DNA of 64,000 nt, taken from positions 1,302,001-1,366,000 of the forward strand of contig NZ_CP104965.1 in NCBI RefSeq assembly GCF_025452235.1, in the 5' to 3' direction. Every line of letters begins with the position of its first letter. The stretch's first letter is position 1. The notes beneath the pieces were generated by a model. That model was not told the DNA's origin. It worked only from the letters and a program-made list of their open reading frames with translations, and ran no database searches. This DNA comes from Devosia neptuniae. GTDB taxonomy: Bacteria > Pseudomonadota > Alphaproteobacteria > Rhizobiales > Devosiaceae. Position numbers and translations under genes: made by a program. This document shows positions 11,887 through 61,626 of the stretch, one piece after another.

Positions 11887-13449
11887 CTAGGCCCGCCTGC
11901 GGCGCAGCCGGCTAGCCAGCATACCCAGCTTTTGCGCGCCGGTGATGTGGACCAGCGTGAAATAGACCACGCAGCCGAAAACGCAGATGGCGAATAGCGC
12001 CGCAGCCTGGGTCAGGAAAGGCGCGCCGGGGGCAAAGATCGCCGTGGCGCGCTGGGCCAGCAGATAGAGCACACCGGCCATGACAAGGCTGCTGGCGATG
12101 GTCAGCAGATGTTTGCGTAGCGAAGCCGCGGGCAGGGCGAAATAGCCGCGCCGGGCGAGGAAGAGCGCCAGCAGCACCGCATTGAGCCAGGAGGAAATAG
12201 TGGTGGCCAGCGCAATGCCGACATGCTGCAAGCTGGGGAACAGCCACAGCGAAATGCCGATATTGGCGAGCACGGACAGCCCCGCGAAAATCGTCGGCGT
12301 GATGGTGTCCTTGCGCGAGAAAAAGCCCGGCTGCAACACGCGGATCAAGACGAAGGCTGGCAGGCCCCAGGCATAGCCCACCAGCGCTTCGGCGACGGGC
12401 ACGGTAGCGCTGGCATCGAAGGCGCCGCGCTCGAACAGCACCCGGACGATGGGTACTGACAATGCCGCCAGCGCCGCGGCGGCAGGCATGGAGAGCAGCA
12501 TGGAGAGCAGCAGCGACTGGTCCTGGCTTTGTGCCGCCTCGGCATTGCGACCGGCGCTGAGATGGCGGCTGAGCTCGGGCAGCAGCACCGTGCCGATGGC
12601 GATGCCGATAATGCCCAGCGGCAGCTGGTAGAGCCGGTCGGCATAGGACAGCACGGAGATGGCATTGTCGGCGCTTGAGGCAATCGCTGTACCCACCAGG
12701 ATATTGATCTGGGTGATGCCGCCGGCCAGGATTGCTGGAATGGCCAGCAGCCAGAAACGTCGGACTTCGGCATTGGGCCAGGGAATACCCAGGCGCGGCA
12801 CGAAATTGGCGCGGCGCACGGCGCCATAAACCAAAGCCAGTTGCGCAACGCCGCCCAGAAGCATGGCGATGGCGACCCAGAAGGCGATATCGGCCTTGTC
12901 CTCCAGCACCAGGATGGCCAGCGGGACGAGGGCGGCGATATTGACGATGTTGAGGATTATGGGCGCGAAGGCGGAGGCGAAAAAGCGGCCCAGCGTGTTC
13001 AGAATGCCGGCATAGGCGGCCATCAGCGACATGCAGGCCAGATAGGGGAACATGATGCGCGACAGGTAGACCGTCAGCGCGAATTTTTCCGGATCGTCGA
13101 ACCCCGGCACGAAGACCCGCATAATGGGCTCCATGAAGATTTCGGCGAGGATGGTGACGACGAGGATCGCCGCGACCAGCCAGCTCATGATGCGGCTGGC
13201 GAGCAGCTTGGCGGCGTCTTCGCCCTGGGTTTCGAGCGCGGTCGAAAACATCGGCACGAAGGCGGTGTTGAAGGCGCCTTCGGCGAATAGCCGCCGGAAC
13301 AGATTGGGAAAGCGGAAGGCGGCGTTGAAGGCGTCGGCGGCGGGGCCGATGCCAAGCACGGCGGCCATCAGCGCGTCGCGGGCAAAGCCGGCAATGCGGG
13401 AGACCAGGGTCAGCCCGCCTACGGAGAGGAAATTGCGGTAGAGGCTCAT
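11887..13449 (-). CDS. murJ: Lipid II flippase MurJ
   Basis: A 520-aa polytopic inner-membrane protein of the MOP superfamily (MviN) that flips lipid II to the periplasm for peptidoglycan synthesis. Opening features are SVGGLTLVSRIAGFARDALMA and FNAAFRFPNLFRRLFAEGAFNTAFVP, with about fourteen hydrophobic segments through to the basic tail SRLRRRRA. It stands 30 bases behind glnD and ahead of trpS, a grouping frequent in rhizobia-related bacteria. Confidence 0.96.
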   Translation of the reverse strand: MSLYRNFLSVGGLTLVSRIAGFARDALMAAVLGIGPAADAFNAAFRFPNLFRRLFAEGAFNTAFVPMFSTALETQGEDAAKLLASRIMSWLVAAILVVTILAEIFMEPIMRVFVPGFDDPEKFALTVYLSRIMFPYLACMSLMAAYAGILNTLGRFFASAFAPIILNIVNIAALVPLAILVLEDKADIAFWVAIAMLLGGVAQLALVYGAVRRANFVPRLGIPWPNAEVRRFWLLAIPAILAGGITQINILVGTAIASSADNAISVLSYADRLYQLPLGIIGIAIGTVLLPELSRHLSAGRNAEAAQSQDQSLLLSMLLSMPAAAALAALSVPIVRVLFERGAFDASATVPVAEALVGYAWGLPAFVLIRVLQPGFFSRKDTITPTIFAGLSVLANIGISLWLFPSLQHVGIALATTISSWLNAVLLALFLARRGYFALPAASLRKHLLTIASSLVMAGVLYLLAQRATAIFAPGAPFLTQAAALFAICVFGCVVYFTLVHITGAQKLGMLASRLRRRRA

Positions 13450-20454: not shown

Positions 20455-20559
20455 CGTCCCCTCCCCCTTGAGGGGAGGGTTAGGGTGGGGGTCGGCGAGG
20501 ACCAGCGCCGGGGCCACAAGGCCCCCCACGCCGGCCCTCCCCTCAGGGGGGAGGGAGGG
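20455..20559. repeat. Dispersed palindromic element (CTTGA-loop type)
   Basis: The left hairpin CCCTCCCC-CTTGA-GGGGAGGG (20459-20479) and an inverted right arm of the same sort (about 20534-20555) enclose GTGGGGGTCGGCG. It fills the gap between the start of the DUF2189 gene and the end of the GH43 gene. The same loop occurs in the elements at 31393, 49081, 52003 and 61441. Confidence 0.75.
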
Positions 20560-22202: not shown

Positions 22203-22290
22203 CCTTCTCCCCTTGTGGGAGAGGTGGCGCGCAGCGCCGGATGAGGGGTCTGCGATGGTTGAAAGACCCCCTCCCTGGCAGGGAAGGGGT
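22203..22290. repeat. Dispersed palindromic element between xylA and the GH43 gene
   Basis: Shows the layout of the 49081 and 52003 elements: a hairpin around CTTGT, then GGCGC-GCA-GCGCC, then GGATGAGGGGTCTGC, then a GGGTC/GACCC-rich right part. The second hairpin replaces the GCCC-GAA-GGGC hairpin of the other copies, so pairing is kept while the bases differ. Confidence 0.7.
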
Positions 22291-49080: not shown

Positions 49081-49223
49081 CCTTCTCCCCTTGAGGGAGA
49101 AGGTGCCCGAAGGGCGGATGAGGGGTCTCTTTCTGCGCTTCTGGCATGAGATGACGCAGAACCCCTCACCCTGTCATTTCTGCTGAACGCAGAAATGCCG
49201 TCCCTCTCCCTCAAGGGGAGAGG
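49081..49223. repeat. Dispersed modular palindromic element between dnaK and the hydrolase gene
   Basis: Left hairpin CCTTCTCCC-CTTGA-GGGAGAAGG (49081-49103), then GCCC-GAA-GGGC, GGATGAGGGG, TTCTGGCAT, CCCCTCACCC, nested hairpin CATTTCTGC-TGAAC-GCAGAAATG and right hairpin CCTCTCCCTCAAGGGGAGAGG. Near-identical to 52003-52150 and, in reverse, 61441-61626. It fills most of the 350-base gap with no gene. Confidence 0.85.
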
Positions 49224-49261
49224 TAGGGTTGTGACCACATTGCACCAATGCCAGCCATTCC

Positions 49262-49275
49262 GTTTCACGTGAATC
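49262..49275 (+). repeat. GTTTCACGTGAATC 14-mer, copy 4
   Basis: Exact copy in the gap between dnaK and the hydrolase gene, 85 bases before the latter's start. Confidence 0.7.
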
Positions 49276-49359
49276 ACCCGCCGCAAAAACAGCACGATTG
49301 GGCCTAAATCCCGGCCGAATGGGGGGATCAAACAGAGGCACCAAGAACGAGGTGGCTCG

Positions 49360-50427
49360 ATGAGCGATTCCAGCGCGACTATTCCTGAGCCGGCCCACCA
49401 GGCCGATACGATCGGGCGCATTGCCGAATTGATCGGTGGCGATCCGATGAGCCGGCTCGATACCGATATGAAGCATGTGCTCGACGCCCTGGCCGAACTC
49501 GGCGCGCGGCCGCTGGAGCAGGCGACGCCCGCCTCGGCCCGGCGCCAGCCCAAAGCCGCCGACGCCATTGCCGGTATTCTGGCGCTGCAGACCCGTGAGG
49601 CCGCTGACGATGGCGTGAGTGCCGAGGATATTGCCGTCGAGACCGGCGAGGACACGAGCCTGCCTGCGCGCCTCTATCGCCCCTTAGGCCTGCTCAGCCG
49701 ACTCAATCCGATGATCCTCTATTTCCACGGCGGCGGCTTTGTCACCGGCGACCTCGATACCCATGACGCCTCGGCCCGTGCCCTGGCGCGGCGCACCGGC
49801 GCCATCGTGGTCTCGGTCGCCTATCGTCTCGCCCCCGAGCACAAATTTCCCGCCGCCCATGACGATGCCTGGGCCTCCTGGCGCTGGCTGATTGCCAAGG
49901 CGCGCGAGCTGGGCGGTGACCCGCGCCGGCTGGCGATTGCCGGGGAAGATGCCGGAGCAAACCTCGCCGCCAATGTGGCATTGCGCGCCCGCAAGGAACG
50001 CATCACCCAGCCACTGCATCAATTGCTGATCCACCCCATTGCAGGGAGTGACCTGACCACCCCCTCCTATGGCGCGACCCTAAGGGTCCGCCCGATCGGG
50101 CTGGCCGCCATGCGCTGGCGCTTCCGGCACCTGTTCGAGGATGCCGAGCAGATCAAGGACACGCGGATTGATCTGGTCGCCCGCGACGACTGGCGCGGCG
50201 TGGCCCCGGCCACCATCGTGCTGGCCGAGATCGATCCACTGCGTTCGGAAGGCGAGGCCTTGGCCGAAGCGCTGGAAGCCGCGCATGTGCCGGTCAATTG
50301 CTGGGTTTATGACGGGGTAACGCAGGGCTTTTTCGGGCTGGGCGTCCTGGTCACCAAGGCGCTGTTCGCCCAGGGCGACGCCGCCGATGCGCTGAGCAAG
50401 GCCTTCATGTCCGACCGGCGCGGGTGA
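49360..50427 (+). CDS. Alpha/beta hydrolase-fold protein lacking catalytic Ser and His
   Basis: A 355-aa protein of the hormone-sensitive-lipase-like family with a long N-terminal region (residues 1-100). The oxyanion motif is intact (MILYFHGGGFVTGDLDTHDA), and SVAYRLAPEHKFPAAHDD and EIDPLRSEGEALAE are typical. But the nucleophile elbow, normally GDSAGG, reads AGEDAGAN (Asp in place of Ser), and the expected HGF near the end reads TQGFFG (Gln in place of His). The fold is kept but hydrolysis is unlikely. It lies between dnaK and dnaJ, so a binding role in stress is possible, without proof. Confidence 0.85.
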   Translation: MSDSSATIPEPAHQADTIGRIAELIGGDPMSRLDTDMKHVLDALAELGARPLEQATPASARRQPKAADAIAGILALQTREAADDGVSAEDIAVETGEDTSLPARLYRPLGLLSRLNPMILYFHGGGFVTGDLDTHDASARALARRTGAIVVSVAYRLAPEHKFPAAHDDAWASWRWLIAKARELGGDPRRLAIAGEDAGANLAANVALRARKERITQPLHQLLIHPIAGSDLTTPSYGATLRVRPIGLAAMRWRFRHLFEDAEQIKDTRIDLVARDDWRGVAPATIVLAEIDPLRSEGEALAEALEAAHVPVNCWVYDGVTQGFFGLGVLVTKALFAQGDAADALSKAFMSDRRG

Positions 50428-50580
50428 TCGCCGCAAAATCTGCCGAATCAGCAATGTTGAACCGACCGCCGTCGCTTGCTAAGAGCGGCGGCGATGGTTT
50501 TGCCCGTTAAGCGACCCCAGCCCCTTGCGGGGAGCGGGGTCGATTGCCATCTAGGGCGAGACGTGGGGCTGGTTTGATCA

Positions 50581-50597
50581 GGGGCGTATGCGCCCCC
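50581..50597. promoter_or_regulatory. Hairpin just upstream of the dnaJ ribosome-binding site
   Basis: GGGGCG-TATG-CGCCCC stands 12 bases before the GGAG preceding the dnaJ TTG start. It might affect dnaJ translation; no heat-shock promoter was found in this gap. Confidence 0.35.
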
Positions 50598-50619
50598 AAA
50601 ATGCATTCGGAGTTGTTTC

Positions 50620-51758
50620 TTGGCCAAACGGGATTTCTATGAGGTGCTTGGCGTGGCCAAGGGCGCCGACGATGCAGCGCTGAAAAGTGCCTATCGCAAG
50701 CTCGCCATGCAACACCACCCCGATCGCAATCCCGGCAATGCCGACGCCGAGGCCAAGTTCAAGGAAATCAACGAAGCCTACGACACGCTCAAGGACGGCC
50801 AGAAGCGCGCCGCCTATGACCGGTTCGGCCATGCCGCCTTCGAAAACGGCGGCGGGCGTGGTCCCGGTCCCGGTTTCGGCAGCGACTTCAATTCCTCCAT
50901 GTCCGATATTTTCGAGGACATCTTTGGCGACTTCATGGGCGGCGGCCGCCGCGGCGGGGGCGGGGTGGCGCCGCCAAGCTGCGGGGCGCCGACCTGCGCT
51001 ACAATCTTGAAATCAGCCTCGAAGAAAGCTTTGCCGGCCGCACCGTCGAAATCGACGTGCCCACTTTGGTGGGCTGCACCACCTGCGACGGCTCGGGCGC
51101 CAAGCCGGGCACTGGCACTCACACCTGTCGCCAGTGCAATGGCCATGGCAAGGTGCGCGCGGCCCAGGGCTTTTTCACCATTGAACGCACCTGCCCGGTC
51201 TGCCAGGGCCGCGGCCAGATGATGGACCAGCCCTGCACCGATTGCGGGGGCCAGGGCCGCCGCCAGGAAAACCGCAAACTTTCGGTCGATATCCCCAAAG
51301 GCATCGAGGACGGCACCCGCATTCGCCTCGCCAATGAGGGCGAGGCTGGCCTGCGCGGTGGCCCGCCGGGCGATCTCTACATTTTCATCTCGATCCGCCC
51401 GCATGAGCTGTTCCAGCGCGACGGGGCCGATCTTTATGCCCGCGTCCCCATCGCCATGACCACAGCCGCCCTGGGTGGGGAATTTGAAGTGCCCACGCTC
51501 GACGCCACCCGCGCCAAGGTCAAGGTCGCCGCCGGCACCCAGCCGGGCCAGCGCGTCCGCCTCAAGGGCAAGGGCATGCCGGTGCTGCGCAGCAAGGATG
51601 TCGGCGATCTCTATGTGCAGCTCGATATCGAAACGCCCCAAGCCCTGAGCCGCAAGCAGCGCGAACTGCTCGAAGAATTCGCCCGGCTCGAGACCGAAGA
51701 AAACAGCCCGACCTCAGGCGGCTTCTTCGACAAGCTCAAGAAGATGTTTGAGGCTTAG
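50620..51758 (+). pseudogene. dnaJ: Chaperone DnaJ, one-base frameshift as written
   Basis: DnaJ, the J-domain co-chaperone of DnaK, split between two frames. Frame one (TTG start at 50620, GGAG before it) gives the J domain with HPD in [15 protein letters not shown] and the Gly/Phe region, then runs out of frame to 51222. Frame two resumes near 50966 with [20 protein letters not shown] and carries all four zinc motifs ([32 protein letters not shown]) and the C-terminal domains to 51758. One base is missing in the G-rich stretch 50951-50966. All domains are otherwise intact, so either a sequencing slip or a recent mutation is likely. Confidence 0.9.
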
Positions 51759-51788
51759 GGGAACACGCGGCGCTACCCACAAACTCGG

Positions 51789-51932
51789 TGTCACCCCGGC
51801 GCAGGCCGGGGCCCATCTCGAGATCGTGGAACACGCCGCCAGACCGCCTGTTGAGGCTTGCCGGGGCTAACACACACACCTTGCGGCCGATATGGCACCT
51901 CAAGATGGGCCCCGGCCTGCGCCGGGGTGACA
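51789..51932. repeat. Inverted-repeat element with perfect 30-base arms
   Basis: The arms at 51789-51818 and 51903-51932 are exact reverse complements, each starting or ending in the TGTCACCCCGGC/GCCGGGGTGACA form. The arm repeats the scaffold of the 9036-9113 element (GTCA, stem, three-base loop, stem, CC) with other stem bases. It lies in the 480-base gap after dnaJ, which has no gene. Confidence 0.88.
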
Positions 51933-52002
51933 TCGTGGTGGGGGCAGCCTCACACCTCACCCCTGCACACAGCTAGAGCACGAAGATCGGGAGCCACGGT
52001 CT

Positions 52003-52150
52003 TCCCTTCTCCCCTTGAGGGAGAAGGTGCCCGAAGGGCGGATGAGGGGTTTCTTTCTGCACTTCTGGCATAGGCGAACGCAGCACCCCTCACCCTGTCA
52101 TTTCTGCTGAACGCAGAAATGCCGTCCCTCTCCCTCAAGGGGAGAGGGGA
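52003..52150. repeat. Dispersed modular palindromic element downstream of dnaJ
   Basis: Almost identical to the 49081-49223 element over about 145 bases, including GAAGGTGCCCGAAGGGCGGA, CATTTCTGC-TGAAC-GCAGAAATG and the closing CCTCTCCCTCAAGGGGAGAGG. The few differences lie mainly in the short middle part. Confidence 0.85.
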
Positions 52151-52237
52151 AGAGTGATCACGGCTCAAGTCCGGCCCCTTGCCGAATATGGGGCACGCAG
52201 GCACAGTCACTGCACCGCAGCAGGAACTCCCCCGACC

Positions 52238-52783
52238 ATGCCGACCGCCCTTACCCTTTCCGGCTCCATCCGCACCGGATCGTATAATCGCCTGTTGCAG
52301 GCTCATATCGGCCGCAAGCTCGAAGCCGCCGGCGTCACTGTCACCGCGCTCGATCTCGCCGATTTCGACATGCCGATCTTCAATGAGGATCTGGAACCCG
52401 ACAATGTGCCCGAAGCCGCGGTGCGCCTGGCCGAGCTGTGGCGCAGCCATGACATCATCTTCATCGCCAGCCCCGAATATAATGGCGGCGCCTCCCCGCT
52501 GATCATCAACACGCTGGCCTGGGTCAGCCGGCAGCGGCCCAGCCCGTTTCAGCACGCCATATTTGGCATTGGCGGGGTCAGCTCGGGCAAATATGGCACC
52601 ATCTGGGGCCTCAGCCATTTGCGCGAATCGCTGACCAAGGTGGGCGCATTGGTGGTGCCGACGCTGTTGGGCATCGGGCCGGCCAGCGAAGCCTTTGACG
52701 AGACCGGTGCGCCTATCGAGCCCGCCATCATCCGCAAGGTCGACAGCATGGTCAAAGAGCTGACCCACTTCTCACGGGGCTGA
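52238..52783 (+). CDS. NADPH-dependent FMN reductase family protein
   Basis: A 181-aa flavodoxin-fold protein. The start TALTLSGSIRTGSYNRLLQ matches the phosphate-binding loop of the FMN_red family; IFIASPEYNGGASPLIINTLAW is the second flavin-contact motif and SSGKYGTIWGLSHLRESL follows. It should reduce FMN, quinones or azo compounds with NAD(P)H. ATG 52238 is preferred over the GTG at 52154, whose extra residues look non-coding. A histidine-phosphatase gene follows after four bases. Confidence 0.92.
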   Translation: MPTALTLSGSIRTGSYNRLLQAHIGRKLEAAGVTVTALDLADFDMPIFNEDLEPDNVPEAAVRLAELWRSHDIIFIASPEYNGGASPLIINTLAWVSRQRPSPFQHAIFGIGGVSSGKYGTIWGLSHLRESLTKVGALVVPTLLGIGPASEAFDETGAPIEPAIIRKVDSMVKELTHFSRG

Positions 52784-52787
52784 AACC

Positions 52788-53396
52788 ATGCTGGCGCTCT
52801 ATGTGACCCATCCCCAAGTCAGGATGGACCCCAATGTGCCGGTGCCGCTCTGGGGGCTGTCCGAGGAGGGCGGGCGCCGTGCTGAGGCCTTTGCCGCCCG
52901 TGGTGTGATCCCGTCCGGCGCGCCGATCTTTTCCAGCAGTGAGCGCAAGGCGGTGGAACTGGCCGAGATCATCGCCGCTGTCACCGGCAGCGTCATCGTC
53001 TGTGAACACGCCATGGGCGAGAATGATCGCAGCGCCACCGGCTTCCTGCCGCCCGAGCTGTTCGAGGCCACCGCCGACCGCTTCTTTGGTGCGCCAGACA
53101 CCAGCGTGGATGGCTGGGAGCGGGCGATCGATGCCCAGGCCCGTATCGTAGACGCGGTCGAGACCGCATTGGCCGGCGTGTCCGGCGATGGGCCGGTGGT
53201 GCTTTGCGGCCATGGCGCGGTGGGCACATTGCTCAAATGCCATGTTGCTGGCCGCACCATCAGCCGCGCCGAAGACCAGGGCCGGACGGGCGGCCCGGGT
53301 GGGGGCAATGGCTTCGTGTTCGACTTTGCCGCAAGCCAATTGCACAGCGAATGGACCCGCATCGAGGACATTGCTGCCGGCTGGCATCAGCGCTGA
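52788..53396 (+). CDS. Histidine phosphatase family protein
   Basis: A 202-aa phosphoglycerate-mutase-fold protein. The first catalytic motif, usually RHG, reads YVTHPQVRMDP, so His is kept but Arg is replaced; the second His is in VVLCGHGAVGTLL. WGLSEEGGRRAEAFA and FSSSERKAVELA are typical. This THP variant forms a recognisable subgroup in rhizobia-related genomes. The substrate is unknown, and it starts four bases after the FMN reductase gene. Confidence 0.88.
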   Translation: MLALYVTHPQVRMDPNVPVPLWGLSEEGGRRAEAFAARGVIPSGAPIFSSSERKAVELAEIIAAVTGSVIVCEHAMGENDRSATGFLPPELFEATADRFFGAPDTSVDGWERAIDAQARIVDAVETALAGVSGDGPVVLCGHGAVGTLLKCHVAGRTISRAEDQGRTGGPGGGNGFVFDFAASQLHSEWTRIEDIAAGWHQR

Positions 53397-53459
53397 GGCT
53401 TGCGGCGCAGCCGGATTTGCGTTAACGCCACAGCAATAGCGACATCGGAGGGAAACACC

Positions 53460-54158
53460 ATGACTGGCCAGTTAATCGTGGGCCTCGACGTTTCGTCACG
53501 CGCGCGCGCCGAGGAAATCGTCTCCCTGCTGGGCGATAGCGTGGATTTCTACAAGATCGGCTATCAGTGTTTTTACGGCGCCGATGGCTATGCGCTGGGC
53601 CGCGACCTGCTCAAGGCCGGCAAGAAAGTGTTCTTCGATCTCAAGCTGCTCGACATCGACAACACGGTCGAAAAGGGCGTCGCCGCCATTGCCGAAACCG
53701 GCGCGACCATGCTCACCGTGCACGCCTACCCCAAGACCATGCAGGCCGCCGCCAAGGCCGCCAAGGGCTCGGATCTCTGCGTGCTCGGCGTCACCGTGCT
53801 GACCTCGATGGACGATGCCGATGTCAAAGATGCCGGCTATGCCCGCGATGCGGCGGGGTTGGTGGCCCTGCGGGCGCAGCAGGCGCGCGATGCGGGCATT
53901 GGCGGGGTGGTGACCTCCCCGCACGAGGCAGAAATGGTGCGCACAATTCTGGGGCACAAGATGTTCATCGTCACCCCGGGCATTCGTCCGGCCGGTACGG
54001 CCCTGGGCGATCAGAAGCGCGTCATGGCTCCCGGCGAGGCGCTGGCCCTGGGGGCGACGCATCTGGTAGTCGGCCGTCCGATCATCACGGCGCCCGATCC
54101 CAAGGCTGCAGCCTTGGGCATTCTCAACGAAATGAACAGCGGCACGCGGCTGGCATGA
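53460..54158 (+). CDS. pyrF: Orotidine 5'-phosphate decarboxylase
   Basis: A 232-aa TIM-barrel decarboxylase giving UMP, the last step of pyrimidine synthesis. The catalytic K/D set is seen as [15 protein letters not shown] (with FF before it), [16 protein letters not shown] is the first strand and [20 protein letters not shown] the phosphate-binding region. ATG 53460 has CGGAGGGA upstream. The stop overlaps the hyi start as ATGA. Confidence 0.96.
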
Positions 54159-54925
54159 AGGGCTATTCGGCCTGCATCGACATGCTCTTCGTGCCGGAAA
54201 CGGCCGATGTGGCGCAGCGCATTCACCTCGCCAAGGCGGCCGGGATGGATGCGGTGGAATTCTGGCTCTGGTCCAACAAGGACCTCAACGCCATTGAAGA
54301 CGCGCTGGGCCAGACCGGGCTGGCATTGGCGGGGATCGTTGCCGAACCCTTTGCCGAACTGACCCGTACCAGCGACCACAACCGCTTCCTCGACGGGCTG
54401 GCGCAAAGCCTTGCCGTCGCCCAGCGCTTGGGCACCAAGGTGATGATCGCCCAGGCCGGCCCGCTCCTAGATGGAGTATCCCGCGAGAGCCAGCATGATG
54501 CGCTGGTGGAAGCCATGGCGCGCTCCGCCGATGTGCTCAAGGGCTCGGGCGTGCAGTTGGCGCTGGAGCCGCTCAATACGCTGGTCGACCACGCCGGCTA
54601 CTTTTTGCATTCGACGGCTGAAGGTCTCGACATCGTGGAAGCCGTCAATCGCCCCGAAATCGCACTGCTCTACGATCTCTACCATTCCATGGTGATGGGC
54701 GAAGTCCCCCAGGACGTGCTGGCGGGCCGGGTCGAGCGCATCGCCCATATCCACGTCGCCGACCACCCCGGCCGCAACCAGCCCGGCACCGGCGGCTTGC
54801 CGCTGGCCCCGACCCTCGATTGGCTCGCCGCCAATGGCTATGCCGGCTATATCGGCCTGGAATTCAAGCCGACCGGCGAGACGGCCGTGGCGCTGGATGA
54901 GACGCGGGCAGAACTGGGGCGGTAA
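54155..54925 (+). CDS. Hydroxypyruvate isomerase family TIM-barrel protein
   Basis: A 256-aa AP-endonuclease-2-like TIM barrel. It begins [15 protein letters not shown]; metal ligands and catalytic residues fall in [51 protein letters not shown] and [12 protein letters not shown], as in hydroxypyruvate isomerase (hydroxypyruvate to tartronate semialdehyde). Other sugar isomerases share these motifs, so the substrate is not certain. It is translationally coupled to pyrF and ends next to the convergent kinase stop. Confidence 0.85.
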
Positions 54926-55930
54926 CTACCCCGCCAGCCCGTGCGCCTCGGCCAGCCCGGTCAAGTCCACCAGCGGCCGGGCGCCGATATGGCTGATTAC
55001 TTCCGATGCCGCGAGGCACCCGGTCTTGAGGGCTGATTCCATGGTCTGCCCGCGCGCCATGCCCAGCAGGAACCCCGAGGCAAACAAATCGCCCGCGCCG
55101 GTGGCATCGACCACCTTGTCGACCGGGAAAGCCGGCACCGAGGTGATCTCACCATTATAGATCGCCATGGCCCCATCGGCGCCCATGGTGATGGCGGCAA
55201 GCTCGGCATCCTTGGCGATTTCGCGCACGGCTTCGCCCAGATCGTCGGTCTGGTACAGCGATTTGAGCTCATGCACATTGGCAAAGACATAGTCGATGGT
55301 CTTGGAACGGATCAGGTCCAGGAATTCGGCGCGGTAACGATCGACGCAGAACGGGTCGCTCAGCGTAAAGGCCGCGGCGCGTTCATTCTTGTGCGCGTAA
55401 TGGGCCGCCAGCACGAAGGCCTTCTTGGCTTCGACCGGATCCCACAAGAAGCCTTCCATATAAGTGATGGCGGCGGCGCCGATCTCGTCGGGGCGGATAT
55501 CGGCCTCGGTCAATTGGTGGCAAGCGCCGAGATAAGTGTTCATAGTGCGCTCGCCATCTTCGCTGAGGAAGATCATCGAGCGAGCCGTCAGCGCGCCATT
55601 CTTGAGCCGGCTGGTGCTGTAATGCACGCCGATGGCGTCCAGATCGCTTTCAAACACATCGCCCAACGGATCATCGGCCACCTTGCCGACAAAGGCGGCG
55701 CGGCCACCCAAGGAGGCGACGCCGGCCGCGGTATTGGCGGCGCTGCCGCCCGAAATCTGCTGCCGGGTGAGCGGCATCTTGCCGTAAAGGTCCTCGGCCC
55801 GATCGGTATCGATCAGGTGCATGATGCCCTCGCTCATGCCTTCGCGTTCGATAAACCCGGCCTCGACCGGCGCGATGATGTCGACAATCGCATTGCCGAT
55901 GGTGAGGACGTCAAAACGGGAATGGGACAT
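54926..55930 (-). CDS. PfkB-family sugar/adenosine kinase
   Basis: A 334-aa ribokinase-superfamily enzyme. The N-terminal SRFDVLTIGNAIVDIIAPVE, the mid GGSAANTAAGVASLGG and the C-terminal active site VDATGAGDLFASGFLLG (catalytic Asp) define the family. Close alphaproteobacterial relatives are called adenosine kinase; I cannot prove the substrate. ATG 55930 (MSHSRFDV) is chosen over the longer frame. The stop abuts the hyi stop. Confidence 0.9.
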   Translation of the reverse strand: MSHSRFDVLTIGNAIVDIIAPVEAGFIEREGMSEGIMHLIDTDRAEDLYGKMPLTRQQISGGSAANTAAGVASLGGRAAFVGKVADDPLGDVFESDLDAIGVHYSTSRLKNGALTARSMIFLSEDGERTMNTYLGACHQLTEADIRPDEIGAAAITYMEGFLWDPVEAKKAFVLAAHYAHKNERAAAFTLSDPFCVDRYRAEFLDLIRSKTIDYVFANVHELKSLYQTDDLGEAVREIAKDAELAAITMGADGAMAIYNGEITSVPAFPVDKVVDATGAGDLFASGFLLGMARGQTMESALKTGCLAASEVISHIGARPLVDLTGLAEAHGLAG

Positions 55931-56000
55931 GAAGGGGGTCCGCCGGTGAGGAAATTTTCCGACGCCCGGTTTAGACGGGCAGCGGCGCCGGGGCAAGTCT

Positions 56001-56145
56001 TAGGACCAATCGCCATTCATCTCAGGCTGAGCCGAAAATGGTGGTTTTCGAGAACCGGAGCGGAGCGTACATAAGTACGTGAGCACCGGAAGCGCAGAAA
56101 ACTGCCATTTGCAGGCCAGCATCAGATGAATGCCGGTTGGTCCTA
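56001..56145. mobile_element. 145-base imperfect palindrome, MITE-like
   Basis: The 22-base terminal arms at 56001-56022 and 56124-56145 pair at 20 of 22 positions (TAGGACCAATCGCCATTCAT versus the complement). Inside, ACCGGAGCGGAGCGTAC and CGTACATAAGTACG form a second palindrome and AAATGG...TTTTC parts pair as well. The right end supplies the stop codon of the TetR gene. No transposase is encoded, so it would move only with help in trans. Confidence 0.75.
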
Positions 56146-56703
56146 GAGGTGCTCCACGATCTCGGCGATTAGCGCTTCGGTATCTTCGCCAGCCCGTATC
56201 GCGATCTGGCCATCGAGCAGCAGCACCGCCAGGCCGTGCACCCTTGCCCAGGCGGCTAGTGCGGCAATACGGCCGGTTTTGGCGTCGCCGCCGCTGATAT
56301 GGCGCAGCGTGTCGAAGGCCGCGTCGGCGGCCATGCGCAGGCCGGGGCGGCCATCCTTTTTGAGCTGGGGCGAGAACATCAGCCGGAAGAGATTGGCGTT
56401 GTCGAGCGCGAACAGCACATAGGTCTTGCCCATCGCCGCCATCAGATCGGGCGGATTGGTCGGGGGTATGGCCTCCATCGCCGCGGTGAAACGCTGGAAG
56501 CCGGTGACCGCCAAAGCCTCGAGCAAAGCCGCCCGGCTGTCGAAATGCCGATAAGGCGCCGCCGCCGAGACGCCCACGGCGCGGGCCAGGTCGCGCAGCC
56601 CTAGCCCCGCCTCGCCATCGCGCTCGAGAATAATCAGCGCCGCTTCGAGCAGAGCCTGGCGCAGATTGCCGTGATGATAGGGCGCATTTGATGATGTTGA
56701 CAT
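56143..56703 (-). CDS. TetR/AcrR family transcriptional regulator
   Basis: A 186-aa regulator with the TetR helix-turn-helix (LRQALLEAALIILERDGEAG, then LGLRDLARAVGVSAAAPYRH and FDSRAALL) and a C-terminal domain of the WHG type. It is divergent from a DUF2214 gene and most likely represses it. Two similar 17-base sites overlap its own start and lie in the gap. The stop codon is provided by a palindromic element. No signal for ligand identity. Confidence 0.9.
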   Translation of the reverse strand: MSTSSNAPYHHGNLRQALLEAALIILERDGEAGLGLRDLARAVGVSAAAPYRHFDSRAALLEALAVTGFQRFTAAMEAIPPTNPPDLMAAMGKTYVLFALDNANLFRLMFSPQLKKDGRPGLRMAADAAFDTLRHISGGDAKTGRIAALAAWARVHGLAVLLLDGQIAIRAGEDTEALIAEIVEHL

Positions 56704-56742
56704 TGATCACATGAAGGAGCAGATATGTGAGCATTGATAACA
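56695..56742. promoter_or_regulatory. Paired operator sites between the TetR and DUF2214 genes
   Basis: TGTTGACATTGATCACA (56695-56711) and TGTGAGCATTGATAACA (56726-56742) are similar, match at 13 of 17 positions when aligned, and have centres 31 bases apart (three helical turns). One covers the TetR start codon. Confidence 0.5.
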
Positions 56743-56763
56743 TAGAGCGTTGAGGGCTCGCAA

Positions 56764-57219
56764 ATGGATATCGGACTGATCCTGGCCATCGCGCACCATC
56801 TGGCGGTGTTCACCCTCGTCGGCATCATCGCCGCCGAATTTGCCCTGCTGCGACCAGGCATTGCCGGCACCCGCCTCAGCCAGCTGGCCAAGATTGACGG
56901 CGCCTATGGCGGCGTGGCCACGCTGGTGATCATTGTCGGCTTCACCCGCGTCTTCTTCGGCGGCGTGGAGGCAAGCTATTACCTGACCAATTTCGCCTTC
57001 TGGGCCAAGATGGCGGCCTTTGTCGTCGTGGGTCTGCTCTCGATCCAGCCGACCCTGTCGCTGCTGCGCTGGCGCAAGCGCCTGGCCAGCGAACCGGATT
57101 TCACGCCACCTGCCGGCGAAATCGCCGCAAGTCGCAAGTTCCTGCATGGCGAAGTGGCCATCCTGGTGCTGATCCCGATTTTCGCGGCGGCCATGGCGCG
57201 GGGCTATGGCGTGGCCTAG
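56764..57219 (+). CDS. DUF2214 family membrane protein
   Basis: A 151-aa inner-membrane protein with four hydrophobic segments (LILAIAHHLAVFTLVGIIAA; YGGVATLVIIVGFTRVFFGG; FWAKMAAFVVVGLLSIQPTL; HGEVAILVLIPIFAAAMARG). The HHLAVFTLVG start and RVFFGG motif match DUF2214. The function is unknown. It is divergent from the TetR gene, which probably controls it, and its stop overlaps the nth stop. Confidence 0.88.
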   Translation: MDIGLILAIAHHLAVFTLVGIIAAEFALLRPGIAGTRLSQLAKIDGAYGGVATLVIIVGFTRVFFGGVEASYYLTNFAFWAKMAAFVVVGLLSIQPTLSLLRWRKRLASEPDFTPPAGEIAASRKFLHGEVAILVLIPIFAAAMARGYGVA

Positions 57220-57890
57220 TTGCCCCGCGGCAGCGGCGTCTTCGGCTCGAACCGGCACCATTCGGCGATAGCGCAGCGCCAGCATTCGGGCTTGCGCGCC
57301 TTGCAGACATAGCGCCCGTGCAGGATCAGCCAATGGTGCGCATGCAACAGATATTGCGGCGGGATCACTTGGAGCAGCGCCTGTTCCACCGCCAGTGGCG
57401 TCGCGCCCGGCGCCAGTCCCGTGCGGTTGCCGACGCGGAACAGGTGGGTATCCACCGCAATGGTGGGCTGCTTGAACCAGATATTGAGCACCACATTGGC
57501 CGTCTTGCGGCCGACCCCGGGCAGGGCCTCCAGCGCCTCGCGGTCTTCCGGCACTTCGCCATTGTGCCGCTCCAGCAGCAATTGGCTCAGCGCAAAGACA
57601 TTCTTGGCCTTGGTGCGAAACAGGCCGATGGTCTTGATCTCAGCTTCGATTTGCTCCTGGCCCAAAGCCACCATGGCCGCCGGGGAGGGCGCCAGTTCGA
57701 ACAGGCGCTTGGTCGCCTTGTTCACCCCGGCGTCGGTGGCCTGAGCCGACAGCACCACGGCCACCAAAAGGGTAAAAGCGTTGATATAATCGAGCTCGCC
57801 CTTGGGCTCTGGCTCGATCTCGTGGAACCGGGCGAAGATGGCTTCGACATCGGCTTTGGGCAGGCTCTTCACTTTTTTCGCCACAGCCAT
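57216..57890 (-). CDS. nth: Endonuclease III
   Basis: A 224-aa bifunctional DNA glycosylase/AP lyase that removes oxidised pyrimidines. The helix-hairpin-helix with the catalytic Lys and Asp is LEALPGVGRKTANVVLNIWF and TIAVDTHLFRVGNRTGL; a C-x6-C-x2-C-x5-C iron-sulfur loop (CKARKPECWRCAIAEWC) closes the protein. ATG 57890 follows GAGAGA. The longer upstream frame is not homologous. DUF2244 is divergent with 46 bases between. Confidence 0.96.
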   Translation of the reverse strand: MAVAKKVKSLPKADVEAIFARFHEIEPEPKGELDYINAFTLLVAVVLSAQATDAGVNKATKRLFELAPSPAAMVALGQEQIEAEIKTIGLFRTKAKNVFALSQLLLERHNGEVPEDREALEALPGVGRKTANVVLNIWFKQPTIAVDTHLFRVGNRTGLAPGATPLAVEQALLQVIPPQYLLHAHHWLILHGRYVCKARKPECWRCAIAEWCRFEPKTPLPRGN

Positions 57891-57936
57891 TCTCTCGACA
57901 CTGATTCTGCGCCTATAGTCTTTCCCAGAGACAGCC

Positions 57937-58419
57937 ATGCCGATGCAAGCCACAACCACTTCGCCGCTGTTTGCCGCCGAGCTGACCCCCCATCGTACGC
58001 TGGGACGGGGGGGAATGCAGCTTGTCGTCGCCCTGGTGATTCTGCTGATCCTGTCGCCGCTGCTGCTGGCCCTCTCGGCCGGTGTCGGACCGCTGCTCGG
58101 CTTTATCGTGCTCGACATGATCGCCATTGGCGCGACCCTGCTGCTCTCCTCGCGCCAGGGCAAGAAGCGCGAGATCGTCCGGCTATGGTCCGATCAGCTC
58201 GAAGTGGTGAGCGTCGATGCCAAGGGCGATCGGGTGCTGCGCCGGTTCAATCCCAATGCCGTGCGGCTGGTGCTCGATCGCGACGTCAATGAAAAGACCC
58301 TGGCGCTGCGCCTGCGCGCCAATCGGGACGAAATGGAAATCGGCGCCTTTCTCAACAGTGATGACAAGGCCAGTTTTGCCAAGGCGTTCGGCACGGCCCT
58401 GCGCAAGGCGCGGGCGTGA
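57937..58419 (+). CDS. DUF2244 family membrane protein
   Basis: A 160-aa protein with two adjacent hydrophobic segments (GMQLVVALVILLILSPLLLA; LLGFIVLDMIAIGATLLLSS) and a cytoplasmic beta-rich domain (EIVRLWSDQLEVVSVDAKGD, then RLVLDRDVNEKTLALRLR) characteristic of DUF2244. The function is unknown. It is divergent from nth and co-directional with the Ada-like gene, a neighbourhood seen in related genomes. Confidence 0.87.
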   Translation: MPMQATTTSPLFAAELTPHRTLGRGGMQLVVALVILLILSPLLLALSAGVGPLLGFIVLDMIAIGATLLLSSRQGKKREIVRLWSDQLEVVSVDAKGDRVLRRFNPNAVRLVLDRDVNEKTLALRLRANRDEMEIGAFLNSDDKASFAKAFGTALRKARA

Positions 58420-58497
58420 GGCGTCAAAATCGGGTCGCTTTGGCTGATCCAAATGCCTAGATCAAGCCATGACAAAAAACCGATCATGGGTGTCCCG

Positions 58498-59367
58498 ATG
58501 AACCAGATCATGCCCCTTACGCCCGATAGTGATTACGAAACCATCCAGGCCGCCATCCGCTATCTCAGCGAGAATGGTCCGGACGTCGCCGACCTGCCCC
58601 GCTTTGCCCGCACACTGGGGCTGACCGAGCGGCAGCTGACCGACCTGTTCCGCCGCTGGTGCGGCCTCTCGCCCAAAAGCTTTGCGCAGGCCGTGGCGCT
58701 CGATCATGCCAAGAGCCTGCTGCGCGCCAGGGAAAGCGTGCTCGACACCACTTATGAAGTGGGTCTCAGCTCGACCTCGCGGCTGCATGATCTGTTCGTC
58801 GCCTATGAAGCCATGCCGCCGGGGATTTTCCGCGCCGGTGGAGCCGGGCTGGACATGGTCTGGGGCGTCGGCCCGTCGCCCTTTGGCCTCGCCGTAGTGA
58901 CCGCCACCGAATATGGCATGTCGGGCCTGGGCTTTGCCGATGCGAATACTACAGTGGAACAGGCTTTCGAAGACCTGGCCAATCGCTGGCCCAATGCTCG
59001 CTTTACCCGCAATGACCCCAAGGTCGCCCCGATGATCGCCCAGGCCTTCGATCCGGCCCGCTGGTCGGCCGACCGCCCGGTCCGGGTGGTGCTGATCGGC
59101 ACCGATTTCGAGGTCAAGGTCTGGGAGACGCTGCTCAAGATTCCAGTGGGCCAGGCCACGACCTATTCGGCGGTGGCCAACCATATCGGCCGCCCCACCG
59201 CATCGCGCGCCGTGGGCGCGGCAGTGGGCAAGAACCCGATCAGCTTTGTCGTGCCCTGCCATCGCGTGGTGGGCACGTCAGGCGCGCTGACTGGTTACCA
59301 CTGGGGCGTGCCACGCAAGCGGGCGATCCTCGGCTGGGAAGCCGGCGTGATTTCCGCCGCGCATTAG
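58498..59367 (+). CDS. AraC-type HTH plus O6-methylguanine methyltransferase fusion
   Basis: A 289-aa Ada-like protein. Residues about 15-100 are an AraC-family helix-turn-helix (FARTLGLTERQLTDLFRRWC; YEVGLSSTSRLHDLFVAYEA). The C-terminal domain is a methyltransferase with VLIGTDFEVKVWETLLKIPV, GAAVGKNPISFVVPCHRVVG (acceptor Cys) and KRAILGWE. The N-terminal zinc/phosphotriester domain of E. coli Ada is absent. The start at 58498 is my choice; ATGs at 58453 and 58486 are also in frame, all with weak ribosome-binding sites. Confidence 0.9.
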   Translation: MNQIMPLTPDSDYETIQAAIRYLSENGPDVADLPRFARTLGLTERQLTDLFRRWCGLSPKSFAQAVALDHAKSLLRARESVLDTTYEVGLSSTSRLHDLFVAYEAMPPGIFRAGGAGLDMVWGVGPSPFGLAVVTATEYGMSGLGFADANTTVEQAFEDLANRWPNARFTRNDPKVAPMIAQAFDPARWSADRPVRVVLIGTDFEVKVWETLLKIPVGQATTYSAVANHIGRPTASRAVGAAVGKNPISFVVPCHRVVGTSGALTGYHWGVPRKRAILGWEAGVISAAH

Positions 59368-59380
59368 TTTCACGTGAATC
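59367..59380 (+). repeat. GTTTCACGTGAATC 14-mer, copy 5
   Basis: Exact copy beginning at the last base of the Ada-like stop codon. Confidence 0.7.
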
Positions 59381-59406
59381 CACGGGATCGGAGTACCCCC
59401 TCCTAG

Positions 59407-59497
59407 CCTCCCCCTGATAGGGGGAGGGACCGGCCGGTGGTTGGGACTCTATCGTGTTGCAAGAGTGGAGAGATCCCTCCCCCTATCAGGGGGAGGT
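59407..59497. repeat. Dispersed palindromic element with TGATA loop
   Basis: CTCCCCC-TGATA-GGGGGAG at 59408-59426 and CCTCCCCC-TATCA-GGGGGAGG near 59475-59496 lie as inverted copies in the gap between the Ada-like and gpmA stops. The CCTAGCCTCC edges match the reversed GGAGGTTAGG edge. Same general type as the CTTGA-loop elements but a different loop. Confidence 0.7.
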
Positions 59498-59514
59498 TAG
59501 GTGGGGGTATCCCC

Positions 59515-60129
59515 CTAAATCTCGATCCGCGCTTCGAGCTGACCTTCGGTCCCGATATTATAAACCGTCGGCTGCCCCGTCGCGATTTCGCGCTTCAGGA
59601 TCTGTTCGGGCGTCAGCCCCTCTATCGCCATCACCAGCGCCCGCAGCGAATTGCCGTGAGCAGCGATCAGGATGGTCTTGCCGGCCTTCAGCAGCGGCAG
59701 GATTTCAGCCTCGTAATAGGGCAGGGTGCGGGCAGCCGTATCCTTGAGGCTCTCACCACCCGGCGGGGGCACGTCGAACGAGCGGCGCCAGATCAGCACC
59801 TGTTCCTCGCCCCATTTCTCGCGCGCATCATCCTTGTTGAGCCCCGACAGGTCGCCATAATCGCGCTCGTTCAGCGCAATATTACGGGTGATGGTGACGT
59901 TGAGAATGTCCATCTCTTCCAGCATCAGGTCCAGCGTGTGCTGAGCGCGGCGCAGGGCGGAGGTGTAATAGAGATCGGGCACGATGCCCTTGGCCTTGAG
60001 CGCCTTGCCGGTGGCGCGGGCTTCACCAATACCTTTTTCGGTTAGGTCCGGATTGCGCCAGCCGGTAAACAGGTTCTTGAGGTTCCACTCGCTTTCGCCG
60101 TGGCGCACGAGGATCAGGGTGCCGGTCAT
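59515..60129 (-). CDS. gpmA: 2,3-bisphosphoglycerate-dependent phosphoglycerate mutase
   Basis: A 204-aa dPGM that interconverts 3- and 2-phosphoglycerate. The phosphorylated His is in [20 protein letters not shown] and the second His in [36 protein letters not shown] is the family signature. The protein is shorter than E. coli GpmA (250 aa) and matches the short rhizobial form. dapB is immediately upstream in the same direction (17-base gap). Confidence 0.95.
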
Positions 60130-60146
60130 GTCAGAATTGTCCTTGT

Positions 60147-60959
60147 TCAGTCGGTAAGGCCGAGCACGTCGACCATGGAATAAAGGCCCGGCTTCTGCCC
60201 ATAGGCCCAGAGCACGGCGCGGGCGGCGCCATTGGCATAGATGGTGCGGTCTTCGGCCTTGTGGTTCAGCTCGATCCGCTCGGAGGGGCCGGCCAGGATC
60301 ACCATATGATCGCCGATCACGGTGCCACCGCGCAAAGCCGTGAAGCCAATGGTGCCGGGCTCACGCGCGCCGGTATGGCCATCGCGGCCGCTGACCTTCT
60401 TGTCCTTGAGCGACACATTGCGGCCCAGGGCTGCCGCCTCGCCCAGCATGAGTGCAGTGCCCGAAGGCGCATCGACCTTTTTGGCGTGGTGCATTTCAAA
60501 GATTTCGACATCGTAATCGGCCAGGGCCGCCGCCGCCTGGCGCACCAGATTGGCCAGCACCACCATGCCCATGGAGAAATTGCCGGACTTGACGATGCGC
60601 GCACCGGCGGCACCAGCGGCAGCAATCGCCGCATCATCGGCTTCCGAACAGCCGGTCGTGCCGATGATATGAACGAGGCCGCGTGCCGCCGCCTTTTGCG
60701 CCAGGGCAACGCTGGCGCCGGGCGCCGTGAAATCGATGATCGCATCGGCGCCATCGAGAACGGCGTCGATATCGTCGGTGATGGCGACACCCAGCGCGTC
60801 GCCACCCACGAACGAGCCGGCATCCTTGCCGATGACAGCAGAGCCCGGGCGGCCGATGGCAGCATGCAGCAGCAGATCGGGGTGATTGGCGATGGCTTTG
60901 ATATTGGCCACGCCCATGCGCCCGCCAGCACCCGCCACGATCACCTTCAGCTGCGTCAT
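60147..60959 (-). CDS. dapB: 4-hydroxy-tetrahydrodipicolinate reductase
   Basis: A 270-aa NAD(P)H-dependent enzyme of lysine and diaminopimelate synthesis. The dinucleotide fold starts [20 protein letters not shown]; the active-site segment [20 protein letters not shown] carries the catalytic His and Lys. ATG 60959 follows GGAGA; the longer frame is rejected. It feeds peptidoglycan through diaminopimelate and is first in the dapB-gpmA pair. The VOC gene diverges from it. Confidence 0.96.
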
Positions 60960-61078
60960 CGTCCATCTCCAAACAGTCACGTCGGCTATAGCAGCGGCGG
61001 ATGCAAACGCCAACACCGCTACCGGAACACAATGAGCGTGTTAGTGTTGGCAAAACGCAGACCAAATCAGGACGCGAC

Positions 61079-61429
61079 ATGACCATCACCAACGCCCTGG
61101 CCGGCATTGCCGTGGAAGACATTGGCGAGGCGATCGACTTTTACGAGCGCCTGTTCGGCCGCATGCCGGACGCCAGACCGATCAATGATGTGGCCGAATG
61201 GAAGACGCCCGGCGGCGGCTGGATCCAGGTGTTCACCGACGCCGACCGCGCCGGCGCCTCGGCCCTGACCCTGGTGGTCGACGACATTGCCGAGGAATTG
61301 GGCCGGCTGAGCTTGCACGGCATCGTGCCGGTCGCCAAGGCCATCGGCGACTTCTTCAAGACCGCCAAGTTCCGCGATCCCGATGGCAACCAGATCGTGC
61401 TGAGCCAACCCCAGCACGGGACCTATTGA
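61079..61429 (+). CDS. VOC/glyoxalase-family protein
   Basis: A 116-aa vicinal-oxygen-chelate fold protein: NALAGIAVEDIGEAIDFYER, LFGRMPDAR, WKTPGGGWIQVFTDADRAG and the typical end FRDPDGNQIVLSQP. The residues that bind metal in glyoxalase I cannot be mapped with confidence. AGGA stands seven bases before ATG 61079. The substrate is unknown. Confidence 0.85.
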   Translation: MTITNALAGIAVEDIGEAIDFYERLFGRMPDARPINDVAEWKTPGGGWIQVFTDADRAGASALTLVVDDIAEELGRLSLHGIVPVAKAIGDFFKTAKFRDPDGNQIVLSQPQHGTY

Positions 61430-61440
61430 GAGCTTTTTTT

Positions 61441-61626
61441 CCCCTCGCCCCTTGAGGGAGAGGGACAGATCATTCTTCGTTCAGAAGAATGATCAGGGTG
61501 AGGGGTGCTGCGTTCGCCCATGCCAGAAATGCAGCAGTAAGAGACCCCTCATCCCAACCGAAATTCGCCTTCGCGAATTCGGTGTCCCTCCGGGCACCTT
61601 CTCCCTCAAGGGGAGAAGGGGGAAGG
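61441..61626. repeat. Dispersed modular palindromic element, reverse orientation
   Basis: Reads on the minus strand like the 49081 and 52003 elements: CCTTCTCCC-CTTGA-GGGAGAAGG, TGCCCGGAGGG, GATGAGGGG, TTCTGGCAT, CCCCTCACCC, then a nested hairpin with loop TGAAC. That nested hairpin has different stem bases (ATCATTCTTC/GAAGAATGAT in place of CATTTCTGC/GCAGAAATG). An extra hairpin with CGAATTCG-type arms is inserted near 61556-61583. It fills the gap between the VOC and coaA stops. Confidence 0.85.

Follow-up and report, generated by a model that had tools for sequence, protein, structure and literature searches.

The 64,000-nucleotide stretch of Devosia neptuniae DNA analysed here (contig NZ_CP104965.1, positions 1,302,001 to 1,366,000, hereafter the window) carries copies of a family of palindromic elements, among them the one at window positions 49081-49223 behind an Hsp70 gene. 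Each full element consists of two inverted copies of a single two-hairpin unit, the two arms of its inner right hairpin change together, and the family is absent from divergent intergenic regions, the same gene ends being differently occupied in related genomes. The elements are probably dispersed, non-coding, mobile repeats of the RIME/REP/BIME kind. As the best explanation of their features we propose that one strand of the unit is selected as a folded single strand, more likely of DNA, and we judge the chances of this explanation to be about even.

Anatomy and spread of the family

In the building block an outer hairpin is followed by an inner hairpin and then by the tag GGRTGAGGGG; a full element is an inverted pair of this unit. 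Three complete copies and a partial one lie in the window. They are listed below in window positions, the hairpins, the tags and the partial copy being read from the sequence.

49081..49223, + strand: complete head-to-head element behind the terminator of the Hsp70 (dnaK) gene (neighbour by Pfam); 165.8 bits with covariance model R1
49081..49103, + strand: left outer hairpin, unit 1
49105..49115, + strand: left inner hairpin GCCC-GAA-GGGC, with a C(GNA)G triloop
49116..49125, + strand: tag GGATGAGGGG of unit 1
49162..49171, - strand: tag of unit 2 (CCCCTCACCC on the + strand)
49175..49197, - strand: right inner hairpin with covarying arms and loop TGAAC (sequence and covariation)
49203..49223, - strand: right outer hairpin, unit 2
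52005..52148, + strand: complete head-to-head element behind dnaJ; 168 bits with model R1
61442..61619, - strand: complete head-to-head element with an extra hairpin of ~30 nucleotides (nt), between convergent genes; 142 bits with model R1, and orthologous sites
22203..22290, + strand: partial copy with a left unit and a degenerate right part; tag at 22239-22248

These four elements had been reported in an earlier note made from the letters of the window, and all were found by reading the sequence at the positions it gave, with the ordered scaffold, the TGAAC loop and both compensated hairpin pairs as it had described them, and with the additional hairpin in the 61442 copy. Their occurrence is above chance, GGATGAGGGG being present 65 times in the own genome and the reversed control 0 times; some of the 65 are coding and element-free. 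What the note had missed is the make-up of the elements as inverted pairs of one two-hairpin unit, and the wide spread of the family. Relative to shuffled sequences, the DNA fold reached z = -8.25 for the 49081 copy and -6.45 for the 52005 copy, and the RNA fold z = -8.0 for the 61442 copy. A head-to-head element could adopt a four-way fold in which the outer hairpins close a long stem around three hairpins; in the consensus fold the outer hairpins pair mutually, so that terminal inverted repeats, a feature of miniature inverted-repeat transposable elements (MITEs), are present. Rfam gave no match at gathering score within the window.

The earlier note had proposed collecting all genomic copies with a covariance model seeded on these elements, and this collection, with a model built from 19 copies, revealed a dispersed family. 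In the own genome (4.7 Mb in two contigs), at least 91 model matches were obtained at E up to 0.01, corresponding to at least 69 places once the strands are merged, of which at least 54 score 40 bits or more and 15 score below; 150 of the 2574 first-look candidates were scored, and the counts are therefore lower bounds. By the same approach the family is found in at least 71 of the 75 genomes of the genus, and in at least 120 of the 297 genomes and 53 of the 122 genera sampled in the order. These are also lower bounds, since at most 41 (genus) and 10 (order) candidates were scored per genome under stricter filters, which makes the class of genomes without elements in the order approximate. Weak model matches at window positions 59406-59497 (32 bits) and 20457-20557 (27 bits) are perhaps decayed copies. 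On contig C2 of the own genome (G000), the + strand carries 20 of the 25 strongest complete elements.

Outside the genus, 139 plasmid records match the element (including Rhizobium 105, Shinella 16 and Sinorhizobium 5); none of them covers 80% of the query, and among the matches listed (30 of 139) the alignment reaches at most the first 56 of 143 nt. In Rhizobium leguminosarum WSM2304 the unit occurs as a tail-to-tail pair between transporter genes, and the stretch examined in Sinorhizobium sp. RAC02 holds two outer palindromes and one full unit. None of the 46 units read from other genera has the TGAAC-type hairpin. In a phage collection, three unannotated faecal contigs gave a match of ~45 nt.

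Regular expressions, by which all units were counted (22 of 377 units having no hairpin of at least 4 pairs), recovered 104 units in the own-genome loci, arranged as 25 head-to-head pairs, 14 tail-to-tail pairs and 27 solos. The spacing is 22-47 nt in the head-to-head pairs and 61-64 nt in the tail-to-tail pairs, and no two of the 104 units lie in the same direction within 160 nt of each other. In the tail-to-tail pairs (e.g., locus L020, 2371-2508) the linker varies while the spacing stays fixed at 61-64 nt, often with GGCTC / GAGCC near the linker ends.

The hairpins also appear in different combinations. The extra ~30-nt hairpin is present in 7 of 115 de-duplicated head-to-head elements and 4 arm types are found both with and without it, 6 of 38 arm types are combined with both outer-loop types, and more than one left inner hairpin is seen with each of 12 arm types. 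The outer-loop types agree at both ends in 87 of the 91 fully typed elements (24 of the 115 could not be typed at both ends), and in 13 of the 14 tail-to-tail pairs of the own-genome loci as judged by eye. The exchange of hairpin cassettes, which the earlier note had suggested, is borne out by the arm types shared across extra-hairpin states and across outer-loop types. Exchange is insufficient by itself as an explanation, because there are 42 distinct arm sequences, some of them one compensated pair apart.

Covariation and strand signature

The inner right hairpin was compared among 121 copies, which reduce to 56 distinct hairpins of 25 nt that can be aligned without gaps. Pairing is kept in 93.6% of the 560 cells of this alignment, two-sided changes occur at 8 of the 10 pairs, and 128 cells are changed on both sides compared with 38.2 in shuffles. 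The covariation score is 0.599, relative to 0.150 in shuffles (reached by none of the 500) and 0.070-0.160 in slid controls. Two measures were not above the shuffles, namely how many pairs show a change on both sides (reached by 95 of 500) and the number of further pair types (reached by 487 of 500). The loop of these hairpins belonged to the pattern used to find them. Among the hairpins it is common for several pairs to change together. The covariation, for which the earlier note had asked a test, is far above the shuffled and slid controls.

The mismatches in the same 56 hairpins, read in the orientation of the unit, are lopsided. There are 11 G·T or T·G against 1 A·C or C·A (p = 0.006) and 14 G·A or A·G against 2 T·C or C·T (p = 0.004, both values taking the sequences as independent), in addition to 3 AA, 3 GG and 3 CC. 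As a control, 48 terminator-like hairpins of the genus loci gave 14 G·T against 0 A·C, and because of this result the mismatch test can be taken to reveal a folded strand.

The loops are also strand-specific. Among 40 distinct combinations of stem and triloop in the inner hairpins, 28 are GNA (27 of them closed by C-G) and 1 is TNC, compared with 7 GNA and 12 TNC among 231 triloop hairpins outside the elements, where stems of at least 6 pairs were used and not of at least 4 as in the elements. In other genera GNA occupies 30 of 35 triloop units. Of the 31 tetraloops in the terminator-like hairpins 21 are GNRA, and none of their 4 triloops is GNA, whereas GNRA is found in none of the 12 tetraloop combinations of the inner hairpins of the elements. 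GNA is described as a stable loop of DNA minihairpins in the accessible text of PMC6479982 and the titles cited there. Only the loop type separates DNA from RNA here, and it is this contrast with the terminators that makes us lean towards DNA. The variable pair of the right outer hairpin (in unit orientation T-A 171, G·A 115 and A·A 2 of 288 contexts) is in line with the strand reading, though not independent of it. The claim of the earlier note that folding matters is backed by the covariation, the lopsided mismatches and the preferred loop type over changing stems; as to its alternative of RNA or cruciform, our data lean to DNA without settling the matter.

Gene ends and their occupancy

Gene context was read with a purpose-made gene caller based on codon usage, and the null expectation was taken from the loci chosen around the elements. 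On this basis, the 54 places of at least 40 bits comprise 34 in tandem and 18 in convergent regions, 1 overlap with a gene call, 1 at a locus edge and none in a divergent region. Divergent regions make up 12,512 of the 58,656 intergenic bases, which gives p = 8e-6 for 0 of the 52 classified places; among the 15 weaker places none is divergent and 5 overlap gene calls. A stop codon lies within 30 nt of 17 of the 25 strongest copies. Between tandem genes, 17 elements are oriented with the gene and 17 against, and because of this even split an mRNA element of fixed orientation is unsupported.

The earlier note had placed all four elements of the window at or just past gene ends and had proposed checking this position across the genome. 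The counts above are in agreement with it, and so are the three complete copies: the 49081 copy lies 72 nt 3' of the stop of the Hsp70 gene, the 52005 copy 247 nt 3' of the stop of dnaJ (both genes by Pfam), and 13 and 14 nt separate the 61442 copy from the ends of the convergent genes on either side. The 22203 copy lies between two minus-strand genes, past the end of one and also before the start of the other, and fits the description in part.

The same gene ends are differently occupied in related genomes. Both flanks of the 61442 site were found in 29 of the 30 loci compared. The own genome and one of the same species carry the same element (2 of 29), L243 carries a different two-unit element in the opposite direction, and in L262, L263 and L267 one or two tags are present, the sequence around them being partial or degraded. 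The gap is no longer than 15 nt in 8 of the 29 genomes, and by eye the other 15 were judged to hold solitary palindromes, palindromic repeats of another type or sequence of another kind. The gap looks as if it were a common landing place. Several other classes of palindromic repeat were seen in it across L240-L269, for example in L242/L268, L250/L254 and L258/L260. For one protein of the window the closest named relatives are those of Rhizobiales isolate AFS059704 (99%), Devosia sp. LC5 (96%) and Devosia sp. A8/3-2 (95%). At the 49081 site, the same element is present in L271, none in LC5 and a lone outer palindrome in A8/3-2; a tag lies within 330 nt of the dnaK end in 7 of 30 loci including the own one, three of these being recognised by tag only.

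Behind dnaJ, the very close relative L050 has at 12490-12662 a different element and extra sequence compared with window positions 52005-52148. The dnaJ gene of the window (50620-51758) is itself split over two frames near 50960, within a G-rich run, with the J domain upstream of the break and the central and C-terminal domains downstream (Pfam). The close relatives L050 and L051 differ from the window at this point, which could be a sequencing error or a real break.

Explanations and relation to known repeats

In the mechanism that we propose, selection would act on the unit strand, running 5' to 3' from the outer hairpin through the inner hairpin to the tag, in a single-stranded folded state and more likely as DNA. 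A putative factor would read the shape of the hairpin, the loop type and the tag and not the letters of the stems, and because it ignored these letters the stems could drift, both arms together. The paired changes may be supplied by template switching within the hairpin, the spread would be due to a putative activity, and the absence from divergent regions could come from selection against harm to promoters. A more specific form of this mechanism, which we put forward tentatively and regard as rather doubtful, is that an activity other than Y1 reads the DNA-folded strand and checks the shape, the C(GNA)G-class loop and GGRTGAGGGG, while the stems drift in a compensated manner and the hairpins are swapped as cassettes, perhaps including ones derived from CGTC-tagged REPs.

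Several observations weigh against a folded DNA strand as the selected form. The mismatches are few and some are inherited in common: G·T falls into 6 position classes and A·C into 1, and one tandem-mismatch lineage accounts for 6 of the 14 G·A. The excess of G·T over A·C is what RNA folding gives, and because terminators give the same excess the mismatches cannot separate DNA from RNA. As for the loops, the GNA type may be partly inherited, the type-a loop belonged to the search pattern, the baseline differed in stem length as given above, and ViennaRNA energies, in which the loops are scored nearly alike, show no loop preference with DNA or RNA. No target-site duplication was recognised by eye, though element-free sites are seen in relatives, and no enzyme was identified, PF01797 being the only transposase family searched. 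Finally, the authors of PMC3733652, in the part of it accessible to us, interpret the gene-end location of other REPs as pointing to a function as RNA.

That last point belongs to an alternative in which the element acts as RNA: whichever unit is met first, in either direction, would fold in the 3' region of the mRNA and serve as a stabiliser, a processing site or an attenuator, and the inverted pairing would provide independence of orientation. The lack of divergent places (0 of 52), the proximity to stop codons (17 of 25), the resemblance in placement to the REPs of PMC3733652 and the match of the G·T excess with G·U pairing, as in the terminator control, are all in agreement with it. However, the loop type is unlike that of the terminator-like hairpins of the same genus, harmful insertions would also be excluded from promoters, and the copies read showed no T-run at their ends. 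The gaps of 15 nt or less in 8 of 29 genomes also indicate that the genes flanking the 61442 site need no element. We consider this alternative unlikely, while giving it serious weight.

A fold without function is a weaker contender, which we hold to be distinctly improbable. Template switching or hairpin-templated repair alone would rewrite the arms, and the co-evolution would be a by-product of the palindrome. According to PMC8794818 (accessible text), stems can be both created and repaired by template switching, and the multi-pair changes common among the hairpins, as well as the matching of the two ends of an element, are what such a process could produce; yet a strand-symmetric process does not predict 28 GNA against 1 TNC, or 11 G·T against 1 A·C. 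The inverted pairing and the strand-specific features also recall REPs whose transposase binds only one folded strand, according to the accessible part of PMC8266576. Movement of the elements today by such a Y1 (RAYT) transposase has very little probability in our view, as PF01797 (Y1 transposase) has no match in the own genome, is present in 3 of the 75 genomes of the genus, and shows no association with the elements in the order (20 of 120 element-bearing genomes against 26 of 177 without, the element calls being lower bounds). We therefore rejected a present-day Y1/RAYT driver, which is largely refuted; a lost or foreign transposase is the remaining form of this explanation.

How small palindromic repeats that have no known transposase spread, and whether they fold as DNA or as RNA, are questions left open in the accessible parts of PMC3733652 and PMC2229807. 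Both become testable here because many compensated variants occur in one genus, together with a strand signature and a comparison of loops with terminators. If the reading of the unit as folded DNA is true, it points to a putative single-strand DNA activity in a widespread bacterial order.

Searching the literature with the letters of the repeat returned nothing related by title among the matches listed, the literature on Devosia with palindromic repeats held no such repeat by title among the matches listed, and neither Devosia nor rhizobia are mentioned in PMC12306157 under the terms used. Among known families, GTAG REP/BIMEs with RAYT share the inverted pairs of hairpin units and the single-strand, strand-specific features, but differ by their Y1 association and by GTAG, which none of our 388 units has in the 6 nt 5' of its inner hairpin (tag strand) and which is not among the 15 commonest 6-nt strings preceding the outer hairpin. 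The CIR repeats of Caulobacter and Brucella, as described in the accessible part of PMC2229807, are likewise alphaproteobacterial and intergenic, ~110 nt long, with two palindromic arms and a linker; membership was rejected, the GANTC motif being found in 0 of 228 head-to-head strings, start-variants included. Bru-RS of Brucella (PMC2267715, in part) is an intergenic stem-loop repeat of similar length, the likeness being by description only.

The CGTC-tagged REPs come closer. In the accessible text of PMC3733652 they are mostly alphaproteobacterial, form mainly head-to-head dimers with negligible direct pairs and tail-to-tail dimers said to be rare, lie between genes that are unidirectional or convergent, close to the 3' end, and have no dedicated transposase. 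Our family has the same prevalence of head-to-head pairs (25 against 14 tail-to-tail), the same lack of direct pairs (0), the same gene-end placement and no associated Y1 transposase, and for these REPs the paired arrangement, the placement and the lack of a transposase are already in print there. In 17 of 28 type-b units CGTC stands no more than 6 nt 5' of the inner hairpin, and 2 of the 28 fit the described combination of a CGTC, TGTC or CCTC tag at the base of an 8-9 bp stem with a loop of 4-5. Among the TGAAC-type units, 18 of 149 fit the tag TGTC with a stem of 8-9 bp, a loop of 5 and A-T first pairs, the sequence of the 49081 and 52005 copies being the commonest. The differences, on a comparison made by verbal description only, are the two hairpins per unit and GGRTGAGGGG, the 131 of 149 TGAAC-type units that do not fit, and the tail of the fitting ones, GCC or GTC and not CCA. 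One lead is that a CGTC-type REP was captured and became the TGAAC hairpin. At window positions 51785-51950 there is also a palindrome pair with TGTCACCCCGG...CCGGGGCCCA and its complement, whose TGTC start and CCA end resemble the verbal description of a CGTC-type REP dimer in that source.

For the whole unit the likeliest candidate home is RIME (Rhizobium-specific intergenic mosaic elements; Osteras 1995). Named elsewhere as intergenic mosaic or palindromic elements, these share with our family the character of a dispersed intergenic palindromic repeat in rhizobia and relatives, within the same order. There are two palindromes in RIME1. The plasmid matches listed here stop by nt 56 of the 143, and the TGAAC hairpin is found in none of the 46 units read from other genera.

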